From positions 1,860,001 through 1,924,000 of the forward strand of contig NC_089457.1 in assembly GCF_026210795.1 (NCBI RefSeq): DNA of 64,000 bases, in the 5' to 3' direction. The notes beneath the pieces were generated by a model. It saw only the letters and a list, made by a program, of their open reading frames with translations. It searched no databases and was not told where the DNA came from. Below, one piece after another: positions 5,797-61,450 of this stretch; the first letter of the stretch is position 1; every line of letters starts with the position of its first letter. The position numbers were made by a program, and so were the translations under genes. Origin of the DNA: Rhizophagus irregularis. Taxonomy: Eukaryota; Glomeromycota; Glomeromycetes; Glomerales; Glomeraceae.

Positions 5797-6710
5797 CAGA
5801 TGGTGGCCTAAATGATTCAGCCAATTAATTTTGCCAAAATTATACAGATCATTACATGTTAGCATAATATAAAAAATATTTAATTTTGTATTAATAATAG
5901 CAATAAATAAATTTCCATACTTCAATTCCTTTATAAAATTTCAGAATTTTTTTGGAAATATGGAACCATTTACTGCATAAATTTTTACAATTACACAATA
6001 ACAAAATTTATAAGATTAAAAATATTGTAATTCGGTCAATATCGATCAGATAATTATGAATTTACCACCATCTGAATCGTCTCAATAAGGCGAATCTAAT
6101 GAGCCAATAATTATTAAAATCCAATTATTAAAAACAAAAAATATTATAAAAAATTTCCAAATTTAATATTTAGACTTTTAAGGTGTAATTACATGCCAAA
6201 GATTGAATCCTACAAAGTACAAATACAAAATTTTTATAATTCTAATCCTCTTAATGAGACAAATATAATAAATCTAAAATTATGAAAATCCAATTATTGA
6301 ATGATTTTTAAATTTAAATTATATGAACTTACAAAGCTTTAAAAACTTGCATAATAATTACATTTGCATAGAACCTATAATTATAAAAAATATTGTTCTG
6401 TAAGACTTATACAATATTATACTTACTACTATCTTATTAAATTTTATGTTAAAGTACTTAGAAAGAACATTGAAATCATATGGAAAAATATTTTTCTAGA
6501 ATATTATAAAAAATTAATTAATAGCATACTATCTCAGTATTGATAAGCCATTATTGCAAATAGTGATAGAATTTATTATTAAATTTTTGTTTAAATTAAT
6601 AAATAAAAATGTAATAATTATATTTGGCTTAAAATTTTATCTTTAATATATAATATGTATGTAAATTTTTTTGCATTGAAAAGTGGCCAGATCATTTAGG
6701 CCACCATCTG
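5797..6710. mobile_element. Fold-back element flanked by TA, ~0.9 kb
   Basis: Terminal inverted repeats: left end CAGATGGTGGCCTAAATGAT at 5797, right end its complement ending at 6710. Both sides are flanked by TA, so a TA target duplication (Tc1/mariner-type insertion) is likely. No coding frame inside. Near 6070-6110 it carries a GAATCGTCTCAATAAGGCGA segment, with a diverged inverted partner near 6240-6290. These match the hairpin core of the larger fold-back elements at 52.5 and 60.1 kb. Confidence 0.7.
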
Positions 6711-49023: not shown

Positions 49024-51450
49024 CAGTCAAACCTTTATATAACGATATGTTGGGACATATATGAAATTTTTAGAAAATATCGTTATATCAAAGTTATACC
49101 GATATTTATATGTCCTCACATATAGTGGGAAAATAAAATTTTATCGGTATAACAAGTTTTTAATAGTATATTGGTATATCGAATATCGGTATATCGAGGT
49201 TAGACTGTATACCGATACAATATATACCGATATTTGCTTATACCGATGATTTTTAATTTCCCCGTTTTTTATCTAATAAAAAACCTCGTTATACCGATTT
49301 TTTATATGATTTCACGATATAACGTTATTCGATACTATTTGTTTGTCCCTCATATAGTAACGTATATGTAGATCTGGTTTATATACCGATATATTAACTA
49401 TTTACGGTTAGATCGCGTAAATGAAGTTACGCGATTTTCCCTTTTCTCAATGTCGGAAAAAAGAAAAGCCGTTCAAACTCTTTCACAGCCACGAAAAAGA
49501 GTGACTTTAACAAAAGCACAAAAGTATCAACTTTGCTTAGACTATCAGAAAAAACCACGACTTACCCAAGAACAACTTGCTATTCAATATGGCATTAAAC
49601 AGAACACGGTTTCTGATATTTTGAAGAATAAAGATAAGTGATTACTTCTAGATTTAGACTCTGAGGAAGTAAAAACAAAGAGAAGGCCTGTGCAATTTCC
49701 AGGGAAGTGGAGGAAGGCTATGACACTATGGGTTACAAACACGCTTGAAGCAGATCTTGTTATTAATACTGATATTTTACGTGAAAAAGCAGAATTTTTT
49801 GCTAGGAGTTTTGAAGTTAATAATTTTAAAGCTTTTAATGGTTGGATTTCTAATTTTAAAAAACGTCATAACATGAAAGAATATGTTAAGTGAGGTGAAG
49901 CAGCAAGTGCTCCACTTGAAACTTTAAATGAAGAAAGACAAAAGTTGCGTGAAATAATTAAGGATTATGATTTAAATGATGTCTTTAATTGTGATGAGAC
50001 AGGTAAATACTGAATTTTTCAGATTTTACATGCACTTATTTGTGTTGATATTTTTTTTTGTTATTTTAGGTTTATATTGGGATCTTGAACCTTCAAAAAC
50101 TCTAGCAAGAGGTCCGCTCTCTGGAAAAAAGAAATCAAAAAAAAGAGTTACAATTCTTCTTACATGTAACGCAACTGGAACAGAGAAATTAATGCCATTT
50201 TTTATTCATACTTCTAAAAATCCACGAGCACTAAAAGGTAAAAAAAAAGATGATTTACCTGTTAATTATTATTGGAATAAAACAGCGTGGATGCAGGTCT
50301 CTATTTGGAACGATTATCTCAAAAAATTGGATACAAAAATGCGATTGCAAAATCGCAAAATTCTATTGCTGGTTGATAATGCTCCTGTGTATATTACAAA
50401 TGAAAATACCCAATTAACAAATGTAACTCTACATTTTTTACCGCCAAATACTACTTCTCATTTGCAACCATGCGATGCAGAAATCATTAATTCCTTTAAG
50501 GTTAGCATTTTTTTTTTCTTTTATTATTTTTTAATGTTTTTACTTGTCTATTCGACAATTTTAGGCGAAGTATCGAAAACTCCTTGTAAAAAATAGGGTT
50601 GAAGCATATGAAATCTCACAGCAATTGAATAAAGGAGCCGATTCTTTAAATATTCATGATGCTATTGTTTTTTGTACAAATGCTTGGAATGCAGTAACAC
50701 AAGAAACAATTTATAATTGTTGGAAGCATACAGGTATACTTCCATTAGTAAATCAAGAGAAAGTGAATGAAAGTGTTAATCAATTAGGAGAAGATAATAA
50801 TCAAGTGGAACGGGAAGAAATACAATTTCTAATTGATCAACTCCCATTTGATGATCATATGGACGCGGATGAATTTATTCATATTGATGATCATCTAAAA
50901 AGTAATAAAGGGCTGACTGATAAAGAAATTATATCTTTAGTAAATTTAGATAAAAATGAACTAGAAGTTGAATCTGATGAAGAAATTCCATCGGTAATTT
51001 CAAAAGTTCAGACCTTAAATGATTTGGATGATCTTGTTATGTTTTTTAAATATTCATCATTAAATAATTCTATTAATCAAAGTGAATTAAATACATTACA
51101 AAAATTGAGACATGAAGTATTAAGATCACATATCACCGATTTAAAGCAGGCTACATTAGATAGCTATTTTACTTCTAATCCTAATAACGTAATTATATAA
51201 TTGATATTTACTTCTAATCCCTAATGTAATACATAATTGATATAATTGATACAATTTTGTTAATAAATTTTTTGAATTTTATAAATATAGAATAAAGTTG
51301 CATGTTTATATATATTAAAATATTTATACCGATATTAATCACGTTACTTATAATAATATCGGTATACAAAATTTTTTTTATAAACCGATAATTTGATATA
51401 CCAATGCTTTTTTCCCAAAACAGCAATATCAGTATATAGAGGTTTAACTG
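49024..51450 (+). mobile_element. Pogo/Tigger-family DNA transposon
   Basis: Left end CAGTCAAACCTTTATATAAC at 49024 and right end TATATAGAGGTTTAACTG ending at 51450 are imperfect inverted repeats. Each is flanked by TA (49022-49023, 51451-51452). Subterminal regions contain many copies of TATACCGATAT in both orientations, likely transposase binding sites. An inverted end-like GAGGTTAGACTG followed by TA at about 49196-49207 suggests that 49024-49207 could itself be a 184-bp MITE at the left end. Encodes one transposase gene (49450-51200). Confidence 0.88.
49450..51200 (+). pseudogene. Pogo/Tigger transposase (CENP-B-type HTH plus DDE-1), two in-frame stops
   Basis: Exons 49450-50002, 50070-50500, 50565-51200; about 539 codons. 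The N-terminal psq/CENP-B helix-turn-helix (TLTKAQKYQLCLDYQ, EQLAIQYGIKQNTVSDIL) is followed by a CENP-B-like second HTH (FARSFEVNNFKAFNGWISNF). The DDE_1 catalytic core has FNCDETGLYW (first Asp), ILLLVDNAPVY (second Asp) and LPPNTTSHLQPCDAEIINSF (third Asp). There are 32 residues between the second and third Asp. Two TGA stops interrupt the first exon, after NKDK (49639-49641) and after EYVK (~49891-49893); both can arise by one transition from Trp or Arg codons. All else is intact, including both GT-AG introns, so inactivation looks recent. It could still supply ends for nearby MITEs. Confidence 0.88.
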
Positions 51451-51452
51451 TA

Positions 51453-52480
51453 TACTTATACAATCAATAAATTGCTATTGTTTATTATTAGTTATTTATT
51501 TGAAATAATATTATCTTTAAATATTAAAAGAACAATACTTTGAACTTATTTTTTATAGTTCAAAATTTTTTTACAATAGTAATATGATTATTGAATATGT
51601 ATCATATTATTATATGTCAGTGAAAGAAAAACTCGATTTAAACCCTACTTTTGTGTACTGTACCGAGTTTTTGAAACCTCATGTGATCAAAATTATTTGC
51701 CACTGCACACTTATGAAAAATGATCGACATATACTATATTTTTAAGCAATTTAATAAAAAATAAATATATAATTATATTATTAATCATTTTTTAATTTTT
51801 ATACTGATAAATATTTTTATATATAATAATAATAATAATTGGGGTCTTTGCAATAGAAAGGTACGAAATTCAAAAAAAATTAAAAATTGAATTAATATTA
51901 AATTTGCATTTATTTCAGTAAAAAAAACATAATTAGTATATAAAGTAAAATTAAAATTTTTTTTGAGTTTTGTACCTTTCTATTGCAAAGACCCAATTAT
52001 GATAAACAATATGATTAATAAAATCTCTTTTATTTCTTCTTGTAGTTTTTTTTAATAAAATTTTACAACTTCTTTATTTGATCTATTAAATGCAAATAAG
52101 CAGACACTTAAACTAATATAAAGCTAATAAAAAAAAAAGAAATGGAAATTACAAACTTATTAATAAAAACAAATAAAGTTAATATTATATAAATTCCAAT
52201 TTTACTATATACTTGAAGTTTAGGTTCATTTATTAGATTGCCTTTAATCCTTATAACTTATATTTTTATAATGAGTTTGAAAAAATGGGAAAGAGCAATT
52301 TTTAGAATATAAAGATGAAAATATACTTTATTCTGAAAAGCTGCACCTTGAATATTTCTTTACATTATATTTATTAAGACTGTATTCAATATTTATTTAT
52401 ATTAAAGCTTTGCATATATTAGATTAAATCAGATTACCTGATTAACCTAAACTAATATTTTTTTTTGGGTCAGTTCAGAT
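51453..52480. other. Intergenic with a MITE and a third Uma2-like fragment
   Basis: Apart from the MITE at 51840-51993, the stretch near 52035-52130 (TTCTTCTTGTAG, then CTTTATTTGATCTATTAAAT and GCAAATAAGCAGACACTTA) is a strongly decayed copy of the serine-rich N-terminus of the Uma2-like gene. No gene seen in the rest. Confidence 0.45.
51840..51993. mobile_element. MITE with GGGTCTTTGCAATAGAAAGG ends
   Basis: About 154 bp. The left end GGGTCTTTGCAATAGAAAGG, continuing TACGAAATTC, pairs over about 38 bp with the right end GTACCTTTCTATTGCAAAGA, continuing CCC; only a few mismatches. No coding capacity. Target duplication not clear (AATT occurs close to both ends). Confidence 0.75.
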
Positions 52481-53678
52481 TAAAGCTCTAAACAGTTCAG
52501 GCTAAACTGGGGAACTGATCTGAAACTGGCTCAAAATTCAGTTCAGTTCAGTTTGGGTATTAGAACTGAAAAACTGGCGGTTCAGTTCAGTTTAATCTGA
52601 TTTTTTATAAAAATGTGAAAAATTGAATAGCCATCCATCTAGTGATATTACAAAGTCGAGTCATATATTATTGGATTCATCTCAATGAGATGCGTCAAAT
52701 GGCGATAAGATCATGTCTCTAGCATCGATAGATCACACGTTAACCCATGTTAATGATTTATAAATAATTGGAATTAGAAAGCTATTGATCAGTACTAGAG
52801 ACATGATCTTAGCACCATTCGACGCGTCTCAGTGAGACGAATCCAATGAATATAAATTCGTCCGTGTATGACCACTGGATGGCGAATAATTTCTAGTTTT
52901 GAATTTTTTAAAATTTTTGAGCGTTAAAAATTAAAAATTCCGATACATGAATTTATTCATCATCTAATGGTCATACAAATACGAATCAGGACTCATTAGA
53001 TTCGTCTCGATGAGATGAGTCGAATGGTGGTCAGATCATGTCTCTAGCATCAATAGATCATAAGTTAATCCATGCTAAATGATTTATAAAAAATTGGCAT
53101 TAGTAAGCTATCTATCATTGCTAGAGATGTGATCTTACCACCATTTGACTCGTCTCATTGAGATGAATCCAATGAGTCCTAATTCATATTTGTCTAACTA
53201 TTGGACAATGAATAAATTCATGTATCGGAATTTTTAATTTTTAACATTCAAAAATTTTAAAAAAATGCGAAACTTGATATTATTCACCATATTCAGTGGT
53301 CGTACATAGACGAATTTATATTTATTGGATTCGTCTCACTGAGACGAGTCAAATGGTAGTAAGATCACGTCTCTACACCAATAGATGACTTGCTAATTCC
53401 AATTATTGATAAATCATTTAGCGTGAGTTAACTTGTGATCTATCAATGCTAAAGACATGATCTTACTACCATTCGATACATCTCATCGAGACTAATCCAA
53501 TGATATATGACTTGACTTTGTATGATTACTAGATGAACAGCTATTCGATTTTTTGCATTTTTATAAAAATCGGATTAAACCAAACTGAACTGCCAGTTTT
53601 TCAGTTCAGTTCTTATGGATTTCAGCTCTAATTTGAACCGTCTATAATCCAGACCAAACTGACCCATTTGGAGCTTTA
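52481..53678. mobile_element. 1.2-kb fold-back element with 8-bp target duplication, triple-hairpin interior
   Basis: Ends TAAAGCTCTAAACAGTTC (52481) and CCATTTGGAGCTTTA (ending 53678) are inverted. The octamer GTTCAGAT lies directly outside both (52473-52480 and 53679-53686), as for hAT-superfamily insertions. The outer arms (about 200 bp, many CAGTTCAGTT-type repeats) are complementary. The middle holds six copies of a GTCTCA-TGAGAC core at about 52674, 52815, 52998, 53139, 53325 and 53470. They alternate in orientation, so that each neighbouring pair forms its own hairpin. No coding frame; non-autonomous. Confidence 0.88.
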
Positions 53679-53686
53679 GTTCAGAT

Positions 53687-58403: not shown

Positions 58404-59194
58404 TATATCTCAAAATTCCTATTCTTTTCTGCCAAATAGACAAGTATTATATAAACAAATTAGTTGTGTAAAAGATAAAAATATGCCTCTATAGCCAAGA
58501 TTATTGCAAAATATTAATATTTCTTTTAATTTGTACTTAACTATCAATAGCGATTAATTTTTGGTAAAGGAATTAGAAATAAAAAATGAAAAAATAATCA
58601 TTTTTTGTATACCATCTAACCTTTAGCATTTATAGGAAGTGGATTACTAAATGATAGATAGTTTAAACAGTACTAACTCTATTTCTGCAGATATATACTA
58701 TTCATATTCCAGTTAAAGATAAAGATAATGCATGTATTTTTCTCTAGTGTATACATTAATGATAAACAAAACAGAAGAAAGTTATAGGTGGTTATTTTAA
58801 AAATTAGTTAACTTGGGAGAAGAGGCTGAACAAAATTTAAGTCCATTTATGATTTTTATTAATTTTGAATAAGCAGCAATTAAAGCAGCTCGTTTTGAAT
58901 TTTCTGAATCTATTAATAAAGGCTGTTTTTTTATTTATGTCAAAATATATAAAAGAAAATTTAAGCCATAGGATTGGTTACTAAATATGAAAATAATGAA
59001 AATTTTGGTCTCAAAATGTGCCATATCAAAGCCTTTCCATTTCTTCTACTTTCTGAAATCCCAAACTAAATGCTTTGATTAAATTAAGTCTCTTTTATCT
59101 TCAAATGCAAAAAAAATTATCCAATATTTTAAGAAAAATTATATTTATGGGAGAGTTTAAAGATAGCATAGAAATAATACTACACTTCAACACA

Positions 59195-59582
59195 AGTCAA
59201 AAAGTGAAAATTAGGCATCAATCAGTCACTAATCGATCACCGATTAGGCAGTTTGCTAACTTTTGATTCAGTGATCAGAAAAGGATGAAATATAGCTTAT
59301 TGGAATCATCTCAATATGACGAATCTAATGGTAGTAAAATCACATTTTTAGGATTAATACTTGATGAGAAATTAAGTAAAATATAAAAATAAAAATATAT
59401 CATTTATATTTTATTTAATTTTTTATTAACTATTAATCCTGAAAATGTGATTTTACTACCATTAGATTTGACTTGTTGAGACAATTCCAATGAAGCATAT
59501 TTATCACTCTAATCACTGGATCAAAAGTTAGCAAACTGCTTGGTGGTGACTGATTGATGTCTGATTTTTTACTTTTCGACCT
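59195..59582. mobile_element. Short fold-back element inserted in MULE relic
   Basis: Arms: left GTCAAAAAGTGAAAATTAGG then CATCAATCAGTCAC; right GTGACTGATTGATGTCTGAT then TTTTTACTTTTCGAC. A second inner pair is CAGTTTGCTAACTTTTGATC and its complement. The centre is one hairpin built on GGAATCATCTCAATATGACG plus AATGGTAGTAAAATCAC and its inverted copy, the same module as in the 52.5-kb and 60.1-kb elements. It interrupts the MULE relic between TTLQHN and RAPPLF. No perfect target duplication. Confidence 0.7.
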
Positions 59583-60102
59583 ATGCGAGCTCCTCCATTA
59601 TTTCTACCAGAGCTTTAGTTCGTGCATAAACTAATTGAACTTGATTATCTCACATAAAATTTAGTTGAAGAATAGCATTATCATTAAAATACATTAATTA
59701 GTAGAGCACATGTTGGAATATATACGATTGTAAAAGCAATGCATAAAGAATAACATGAAACAGAATTGTAAATAGAAAATATTATGTGTGAAAAATCCAG
59801 GCCATTCAAACGAAAAAATTACATCAATCATGAAAATCATATCTTATCAGTATTTAATGATTGATATAATCATTCTTTTGTTGATTTTCTAAGAGAAATC
59901 ACTTATAATTATAAAGAAAATTTACTGCTTTTAAAAATTGTAAGCTTATTTACTTTCAAATTGCAATAATAAATTATTTAATAAATAATATTAATTTATT
60001 AAAGTTCTAAAATTTTTATTAAAAATTATAAAGAATTTTATATATATATATATTATAAAATTAAATTATAATTTTCAGTTGATATTGCTATATTGATCTA
60101 TG

Positions 60103-61296
60103 TAGAGCTCCGAATGGTTCCAGTTTGAACCGGGAACCGATCCGAAACTGACCAAAAATTCGGTTCGGTTCTCGGTTCAGTTTTGGAACTGGAACCGTTC
60201 GGTTCGGTTCGGTTCTATTTTATTTTAAGAAAAAATGCGAAAATCGATATAACTCGGCAACTAGTGATCGTATAAAGACGTACAATAGCTCATTAGAATC
60301 GTCTCATCGAGACGCGTCGAATGGTGGTAAGATCATCTCTCTAGCGTCGATATATCACGAGATAATCAATGCTCAACATTTTTTATAAAACTAGCGATAG
60401 AATCATATCTATTGATCCTAGAGACATGATCTTGGTATCATTCGATAGGTCTTAATGAGATGAATCTAATGAGCCTTTTTATCATTTTTTATGATCACTA
60501 CATAACGAGTTATCTTAATTTTCGCATTTTTTTAAATTTTCGAACGTCAAAAAATAAAAATTCCGATCTAAGATATAACCCATCATCTACTGATTGTATT
60601 AGAACAATCTTTAGCTCATTAGAACCGTCTCATCGAGATGAGTTGAATGACGTAAGATCATGTCTCTAGTATCGGTATATCATGAGATAAATCATGCTAA
60701 ACAATTTAGAAAATCAGTATTAGAAAGGTATCTATCGATGCTAGAGACATGATCTTACTGTCATTCAACTCGTCTCGATGAGACGGTTCTAATGAGCTAA
60801 AGATTGTTCTAATACAATCAGTAGATAATGGGTTATATCTTAGATCGGAATTTTTATTTTTTGACGTTCGAAAATTTAAAAAATGCGAAAATTAAGATAA
60901 CTCGTTATGTAATGATCATAAAAAAATGAAAAAAGGCTTATTAGATTCGTCTCATTAAGACCTATCGAATGATGCCAAGTTCATGTCTCTAGGATCAATA
61001 GATACGATTCTATCGCTAGTTTTATAAAAAATGTTTAGCGTTGATTATCTCGTGATATATCGACGCTAGAGCGATGATCTTACCACCATTCGACGCGTCT
61101 CTATGAGACGATTCTAATGAGCTATTGTACGTCTTTATACGATCACTAGTTGCTGAGTTATTTCGATTTTCGCATTTTTTTTAAAAATCGGATAGAACTG
61201 AACCGAACTGGATGGTTCCGGTTCGGTTTTCATTCGGTTTCGGTTCCAACCCGAACCGGAAAAAAACTGCACCGAACCGACCCATTCAGAGCTTTA
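60103..61296. mobile_element. 1.2-kb fold-back element with 8-bp target duplication, triple-hairpin interior (second copy)
   Basis: Ends TAGAGCTCCGAATGGTTC (60103) and CCCATTCAGAGCTTTA (ending 61296). The octamer GATCTATG stands on both sides (60095-60102 and 61297-61304). Outer arms are full of CGGTTCGGTTC repeats. Six module copies at about 60292, 60439, 60615, 60760, 60938 and 61085 alternate in orientation, as in the 52.5-kb copy. The central pair is almost perfectly complementary over more than 60 bp (for example 60585-60650 against 60765-60828). Arms keep many CG dinucleotides, more than in the 52.5-kb copy. No gene inside; a 69-codon frame at 60460 is a shadow. Confidence 0.88.
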
Positions 61297-61450
61297 GATC
61301 TATGTCAATTATATTAGTAAAATGGATAGAATTCATTGAATTAGTTTCAGAAAAATGGAATGTCAGTGAAATAGCAAGTTGGTAAAGAAAAATCAGTAAA
61401 TTTTATGTTACTAATATCAGTAAAACAGGTGTCGGTAAAATGGGTGAATA

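Follow-up and report, generated by a model that had tools for sequence, protein, structure and literature searches.

We analyzed a 64-kb stretch of Rhizophagus irregularis DNA (the window) with a focus on a 1198-bp element at positions 52481-53678 that opens with TAAAGCTC and closes with GAGCTTTA. In this element, the repeat finder detected a 165-nt stretch present three times, at spacings of 326 and 328, together with inverted pairs whose centers lie ~163 bp apart, and a module profile (built without E1, A4-A6, B4, B6 and C6) gave six matches in the order + - + - + -. No reading frame of 120 amino acids was found in the element. The features of the window that are discussed below are as follows.

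6027-6144, - strand: lone decayed module (profile match 6039-6108, extended)
52473-52480, no strand: left 8-bp target-site duplication, GTTCAGAT
52481-53678, + strand: complete non-autonomous foldback element, subfamily A, six modules (end sequences, repeat finding, genome copies, module profile)
52481-52590, + strand: left end (LE), TAAAGCTC terminus and subterminal repeats
52626-52743, + strand: module 1 (profile match extended to 118 columns)
52774-52891, - strand: module 2 (extended to 118 columns)
52951-53068, + strand: module 3 (extended to 118 columns)
53100-53217, - strand: module 4 (extended to 118 columns)
53280-53396, + strand: module 5 (profile match, extended)
53428-53545, - strand: module 6 (extended to 118 columns)
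53570-53678, - strand: right end (RE), GAGCTTTA terminus
53679-53686, no strand: right 8-bp target-site duplication, GTTCAGAT
59191-59585, no strand: element of family G (relative L086) with different ends and two modules, an inverted pair at 59255-59372 (+) and 59418-59532 (-)
60103-61296, + strand: complete element of subfamily C, 1194 bp, also with six modules; exact 8-bp duplication GATCTATG (60095-60102, 61297-61304)

The repeated unit measures ~163 bp and holds a homologous 118-bp module with a 61-bp core. The original prediction, made on this DNA before the present analysis, had described a ~35-bp module occurring six times in alternating orientation; the number and the alternation stand, and the size has to be revised to these values. 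The inverted repeats carry TAAAGCTCYGAACGG at both termini, and in the family consensus GGTTCGG-type subterminal motifs are repeated in both LE and RE, those of LE having decayed in the window element. The second six-module element lies 6.4 kb away from the first. Just ahead of the first element, at 49976-51200, two overlapping frames match the DDE_1 endonuclease domain (PF03184); we take them to be what is probably a decayed pogo-like transposase.

Copies of the element and the number of their modules

The genome searched comprises 146,748,485 bases in 32 contigs. A whole-genome search with the window element returned 745 candidates, 40 of which were scored; 39 of these cover the full length of the query, and the remaining one is split. 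An exact end pattern matched 381 times genome-wide, compared to no match for the reversed pattern, and as a census by exact patterns this misses decayed copies. Thirty copies were read, which as the best matches to a six-module element are biased towards six modules, and 18 further copies, a fairer sample, were picked from facing end pairs among 100 of the 381 end matches. The 8-bp target-site duplication is exact in 26 of the 30 copies, matches at 7/8 positions in three and is absent from one; in the further sample it is exact in 14/18. The proposal that this is a mobile element with a hAT-type 8-bp duplication and inverted ends is thereby upheld, and cut-and-paste movement by a hAT-type transposase acting in trans is well supported by these duplications and ends.

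All 30 best-matching copies have the module order + - + - + -. Among the 18 further copies, 13 have six modules, two have four (872 and 873 bp), one has two (398 bp), one has eight (1526 bp) and one, with five modules, is broken by a nested hAT element (L071 and L072 were omitted from the counting). In six-module copies the module centers are mostly 149 and 178 bp apart. Copies outside the six-fold arrangement had been named as counting against the original prediction; they exist as a minority with two, four and eight modules, and most copies have six. A half-core pattern, ATTRGAWTCNTCTCRNYGAG, matched 824 times genome-wide and its control not at all; 100 of these matches fell into 42 clusters, at least 17 of which read as alternating arrays. 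Decayed arrays may appear as single half-core matches, as in L095, which retains one exact core and is a decayed A-type array.

Long, internally repetitive inverted repeats form most of the element, as is characteristic of foldback elements. The elements are non-coding, present in many copies and as a rule ~1.2 kb long, with the 398-, 872- and 873-bp forms as exceptions; for MITEs, which are short, non-coding and numerous and have inverted ends, the size range in a curated library is 50 bp to 1 kb (PMC11075540).

Arm symmetry, interior inversion and folding

The copies could be assigned to subfamilies A, B and C, with consensus sequences of 1199, 1199 and 1194 bp that are colinear; consensus A was built from 30 copies, B from five and C from one, the second element of the window. 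Module matches start at 147, 296, 475, 623, 801 and 950 in A and B, and at 147, 297, 473, 619, 795 and 944 in C, and a unit shares 63-79% identity with its counterpart in another subfamily. Forms C and D within the TAAAGCTC group are strongly diverged. Because three diverged subfamilies keep the same six positions, the six-fold order is not the product of a recent internal duplication, a possibility that had been raised against it. This order is instead old and a trait of the family (30/30 best matches and 13/18 others). The view that the interior of the element is not filler is likewise supported.

Within each subfamily, the arm partners 1-6, 2-5 and 3-4 are far more alike: 98.8, 99.4 and 91.1% identical in A, 95.7, 98.8 and 91.2% in B, and 95.1, 92.0 and 89.2% in C. 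Since the partners are 89-99% identical within subfamilies and the units only 63-79% between them, the arms must have been homogenized after the subfamilies split. In addition, 11 of the 30 A copies have an interior that runs in the opposite direction with respect to their ends. A single inversion event was rejected because the tree of interiors, with three changes, forces at least two; on the tree of ends there are nine changes, and 318 of 500 shuffles were as low. Near-identical arms and flipped interiors together indicate that arms recombine or are copied onto each other, and homogenization with inversion explains the large palindrome without selection for a palindrome. The palindromic order itself thus arose largely as a side effect of duplication and inversion together with conversion between arms.

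Folded as DNA, positions 52590-53575 gave -320.6 kcal/mol, well beyond chance: 20 shuffles averaged -93.0 (SD 6.2), and not one was as low. The lowest-energy single-strand fold is one long hairpin, so that of the three hairpins within one large palindrome that had been proposed, the large palindrome is found and the three hairpins represent an alternative fold only. RNAalifold found no common base pair over 25 modules of several families. For the module palindrome in these 25 modules, covariation was 0.137, compared to 0.143 after shuffling, and 78.1% of cells were paired, compared to a shuffled mean of 78.9. When the palindrome pairs were slid by one to three columns, only 28-40% of cells paired, as expected because the structure was derived from the consensus. 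Neither an Rfam match at gathering score nor a tRNA (ARAGORN) was found in the window; at a relaxed threshold, four copies gave 52 Rfam matches, all below gathering scores, 49 of them to microRNA hairpin models. A structured RNA or microRNA precursor was rejected on these results. The earlier suggestion that the order reflects selection for structure is therefore not sustained: covariation does not exceed that of shuffles, RNAalifold finds no pairs, the symmetry follows from arm homogenization, and selection is visible instead on the 61-bp sequence core.

A slowly diverging core and its occurrence in repeats with other ends

Between subfamilies, the core (module columns 44-104) differs at 180/1096 positions (16.4%), compared to 388/1026 (37.8%) in the remaining module columns and 271/764 (35.5%) outside the module, and it lies below the rest of the module in 18/18 module-by-pair comparisons. 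Non-CpG change after insertion, determined from 19 of the 30 A copies (the 11 with a flipped interior were omitted), is flat by comparison: 117/5699 (2.1%) in the core, 131/5623 (2.3%) in the rest of the module and 84/4368 (1.9%) outside. Fisher tests of core versus rest gave p values of 4e-29 between subfamilies and 0.34 within, which assume independent sites although the six modules and three pairs share history; a circular-shift control was weaker, with 3/161 shifts at least as strong, the unshifted arrangement counted.

Because the limits of the core had been set after viewing alignments that included A, B and C, the test was redone with columns taken from modules outside the TAAAGCTC group. 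The 55 columns conserved in 18 such outside modules differ by 14.9% between A, B and C, compared to 37.1% for the other 63 columns. The rank correlation was -0.44, and no other of the 118 circular shifts was as low (1/118, the unshifted arrangement itself). For post-insertion change the rank correlation was -0.11 (p 0.25), and the columns conserved elsewhere showed a slight deficit there too (1.84 versus 2.50%). The 18 outside modules include lone modules of no set family of origin and were extended gaplessly, at least one of them (window 59418-59532) out of register, which lowers conservation at that place.

Slow change is not confined to the core. Ten columns ahead of the module (-15 to -6) show zero difference between subfamilies, and stretches near consensus positions 421-460 and 740-780 have changed little as well; all of these may belong to one signal together with the core. 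An A+T-rich block, AAAAATGCGAAAA, stands just ahead of each module in consensus A. It is invariant between subfamilies, resembles stretches beside the H modules, and is possibly a second conserved element.

The low divergence of the core is most simply read as purifying selection during the mobile phase, since lineages would not diverge more slowly through neutral conversion inside their elements. Alternatively, subfamilies could have exchanged sequence by recombination or conversion in the core alone.

The module was also found in repeats with different ends, which the original prediction had not anticipated. Across families the module alignment is nearly gapless over 118 bp. F2 elements have the ends TATATATGAAG and TATACATGAAA and direct modules of 190 bp each, with sizes of 419, 801, 1369 and 1560 bp corresponding to 1, 3, 6 and 7 modules; their 8-bp duplications are exact at L025 and L087 (the latter read from flanks) and match at 5/8 positions at L084 and L085. 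The G repeats, L086 and window 59191-59585, are 89% identical and have one inverted module pair and ends with GGTCGAAAAGTG; no target-site duplication was found by eye in either copy. H is represented by L090, a three-module palindrome that measures at least 932 bp and shows neither A nor F2 tips in the piece examined, which stops short of the true ends, and E by the L002 flank and L091 (258 bp at 86%), in which one module lies within another repeat. Lone or paired modules occur in L092, L093, L094 and at window 6027-6144. In the regions outside the modules, matches between A, F2 and H extend over only 11 to 22 bases, and some of these lie in the A+T-rich block next to the module; no match was found between G and A, F2 or H. 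At L085 (431-1344), an F2 element with three modules has inserted mid-module into a C-like element that is 92% identical to the C element of the window over 519 bp.

Candidate roles of the module array

We lean, by a narrow balance, towards the interpretation that these are non-autonomous foldback elements of hAT type and that their modules are bound by a protein which promotes mobilization. The core would be the binding site of a sequence-specific DNA-binding protein, with several sites per element, and protein at the cores would raise the chance of mobilization by the transposase acting in trans; such a site is suggested by the sequence constraint on the core, its near-palindromic center and its repetition. 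A binder encoded by a transposable element, either the DNA-binding domain of a hAT transposase or an accessory protein, seems slightly more probable to us than one supplied by the host. Since repeats with different tips have this module in common, the binder is probably more than the transposase that cuts the tips of a single family, and the common occurrence points to a docking site used jointly by such elements and favoring their spread.

A more far-reaching reading has, in our estimate, a chance just short of even. The array would be the DNA-transposon counterpart of a SINE central domain, a single selected module spread through several non-autonomous families with different ends, as alternating arrays, direct arrays, single pairs and lone copies, and recruiting one common factor that aids spread or escape from silencing.

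The strongest rival, which we regard as a substantial possibility though clearly the lesser one, is that the site is directed at the host: the array would recruit a chromatin, anti-silencing, transcription or replication factor, as do arrays bound by VANC, and would help different families equally. The occurrence of the same core in repeats with different ends and the variation of module number by tandem or paired steps fit this reading, and the partial texts available to us describe both methylation and small RNAs at R. irregularis transposons (PMC8647823) and the VANC precedent (PMC5735166). However, neither a TE-encoded anti-silencing gene nor a host factor was identified.

On the origin of the module, it is conceivable but rather unlikely that the 118-bp module was once a tiny palindromic transposon, with ends TAACTC..GAGTTA, which invaded several transposon families and has since been propagated and amplified by them. 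The nearly gapless between-family alignment across the module would follow from such an origin, as would lone near-palindromic modules (L093, and in decayed form L094 and window 6027-6144), but no lone module has a demonstrated target-site duplication, and lone modules may be remnants of larger elements, as the decayed array L095 is. The lone module at L093 (212-336) has TTAA on both sides (TTAA-ATAACT..AGTTAT-TTAA), which could be a target duplication or chance.

We disfavor as improbable the explanation that repeated duplication and arm-to-arm gene conversion alone built a passive structure in which the conservation of the core is only apparent. Homogenized arms and flipping interiors within subfamilies, unit numbers that change in pairs and the slow stretches outside the core are all compatible with it, but conversion within elements leaves the slower core divergence in every comparison unexplained, given that post-insertion change is flat, and modules from other repeats show conservation at these columns too.

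It is likewise doubtful that this is an ordinary hAT family in which a partner encoding the transposase has an identical kind of array and the modules are simply its normal internal sequence. Two TAAAGCTC-ended copies, L074 (3953 bp) and L089 (5557 bp), contain hAT transposase frames, as such a partner would, but both transposases belong to separate nested hAT elements. In L074 the nested hAT has its own TAGAGGTGCAGCC ends and flanks, GATGTAAC and GATAGAAC, that match at 6/8 positions; the same hAT, without modules, has an exact duplication, GGAAAGAA, in L081. In L089 the nested hAT has TAAAGATGGTC ends and the duplication GCCATAGC and lies inside module 1, and its ends resemble those of the element in no more than TAAAG and a stretch of AACGGT. 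No TAAAGCTC-ended relative with a transposase of its own was found among 100 of the 381 ends and 83 undecayed ends. The locus L071+L072 (G000:C4:4641477-4652144), with two facing TAAAGCTC left ends 10.3 kb apart and a short repeat near the join of the two pieces, was set aside: its flanks are inverted complements, it has no modules, and no transposase was found in three frames searched with Pfam.

Finally, that a transcribed long hairpin feeds small RNAs or a structured RNA is very improbable, for although the hairpin is very stable and small RNAs occur at transposons in R. irregularis according to the portion of the source available (PMC8647823), RNAalifold gave no pairs, covariation did not exceed that of shuffles, and nothing in the window matched Rfam at gathering score, the relaxed matches in four copies all being below it.

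Among known systems, the element resembles Galileo of Drosophila (P superfamily), which has foldback-like long inverted repeats with inner tandem repeats that were shown to offer the THAP domain of the transposase additional sites for binding (PMC3688188). Galileo differs in its P-superfamily transposase and in having its repeats in the inverted ends of one family; here, the duplications are of hAT type, alternating modules fill the interior, the module is also present in repeats with other ends, and binding is putative only. The Drosophila virilis foldback element Tetris / DAIBAM is similarly non-autonomous, apparently, with 8-10 bp duplications and ~220-bp internal repeats of varying number, but it has three structurally complete copies and tandem arm repeats that also form satellite arrays (PMC4079207), compared to 381 exact ends, alternating modules in even numbers, a conserved core and modules in other families here. 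The VANDAL elements of Arabidopsis have motif arrays in their non-coding parts, multiplied by tandem duplication (PMC5735166, PMC10398659) and bound by the TE-encoded anti-silencing protein VANC (PMC5735166); the nine-base VANDAL motif is rare outside one family, whereas the 61-bp core with its putative binder occurs in several repeat families. SINE central domains (CORE, V, Deu, Ceph) likewise form a conserved central block common to distant families, for which selective constraint for retroposition has been proposed (PMC3272025). SINEs are retroposed, unlike the present DNA elements, which have cut-and-paste-type target duplications and each contain many blocks.

Inner repeats in foldback elements, non-autonomous hAT elements and shared conserved blocks (in SINEs, PMC3272025) are each already known. 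In a literature search limited to open-licence papers, we found no description of a selected module common to non-autonomous DNA elements with different ends, nor of this element or module. The history of the inner repeats of a foldback element can here be separated into a symmetry kept by arm homogenization and a 61-bp core kept apparently by selection. Uncharacterized repeats make up 24% of the R. irregularis genome, in which DNA methylation and small RNAs are found at transposons, as stated in the available part of PMC8647823. Should the core be recognized by a single factor across families, that factor would offer a handle on the persistence of non-coding transposons in an arbuscular mycorrhizal fungus.

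Two further observations concern the arrangement of elements. At L083 (G000:C21:1749600-1756000), two TAGAGGTGCAGCC hAT copies lie inverted and almost back to back. Among the 100 of 381 end matches, some facing end pairs lie 12-18 kb apart near contig ends (for example C1:7977667-7989976 and C3:45247-62789), possibly as a result of subtelomeric accumulation.
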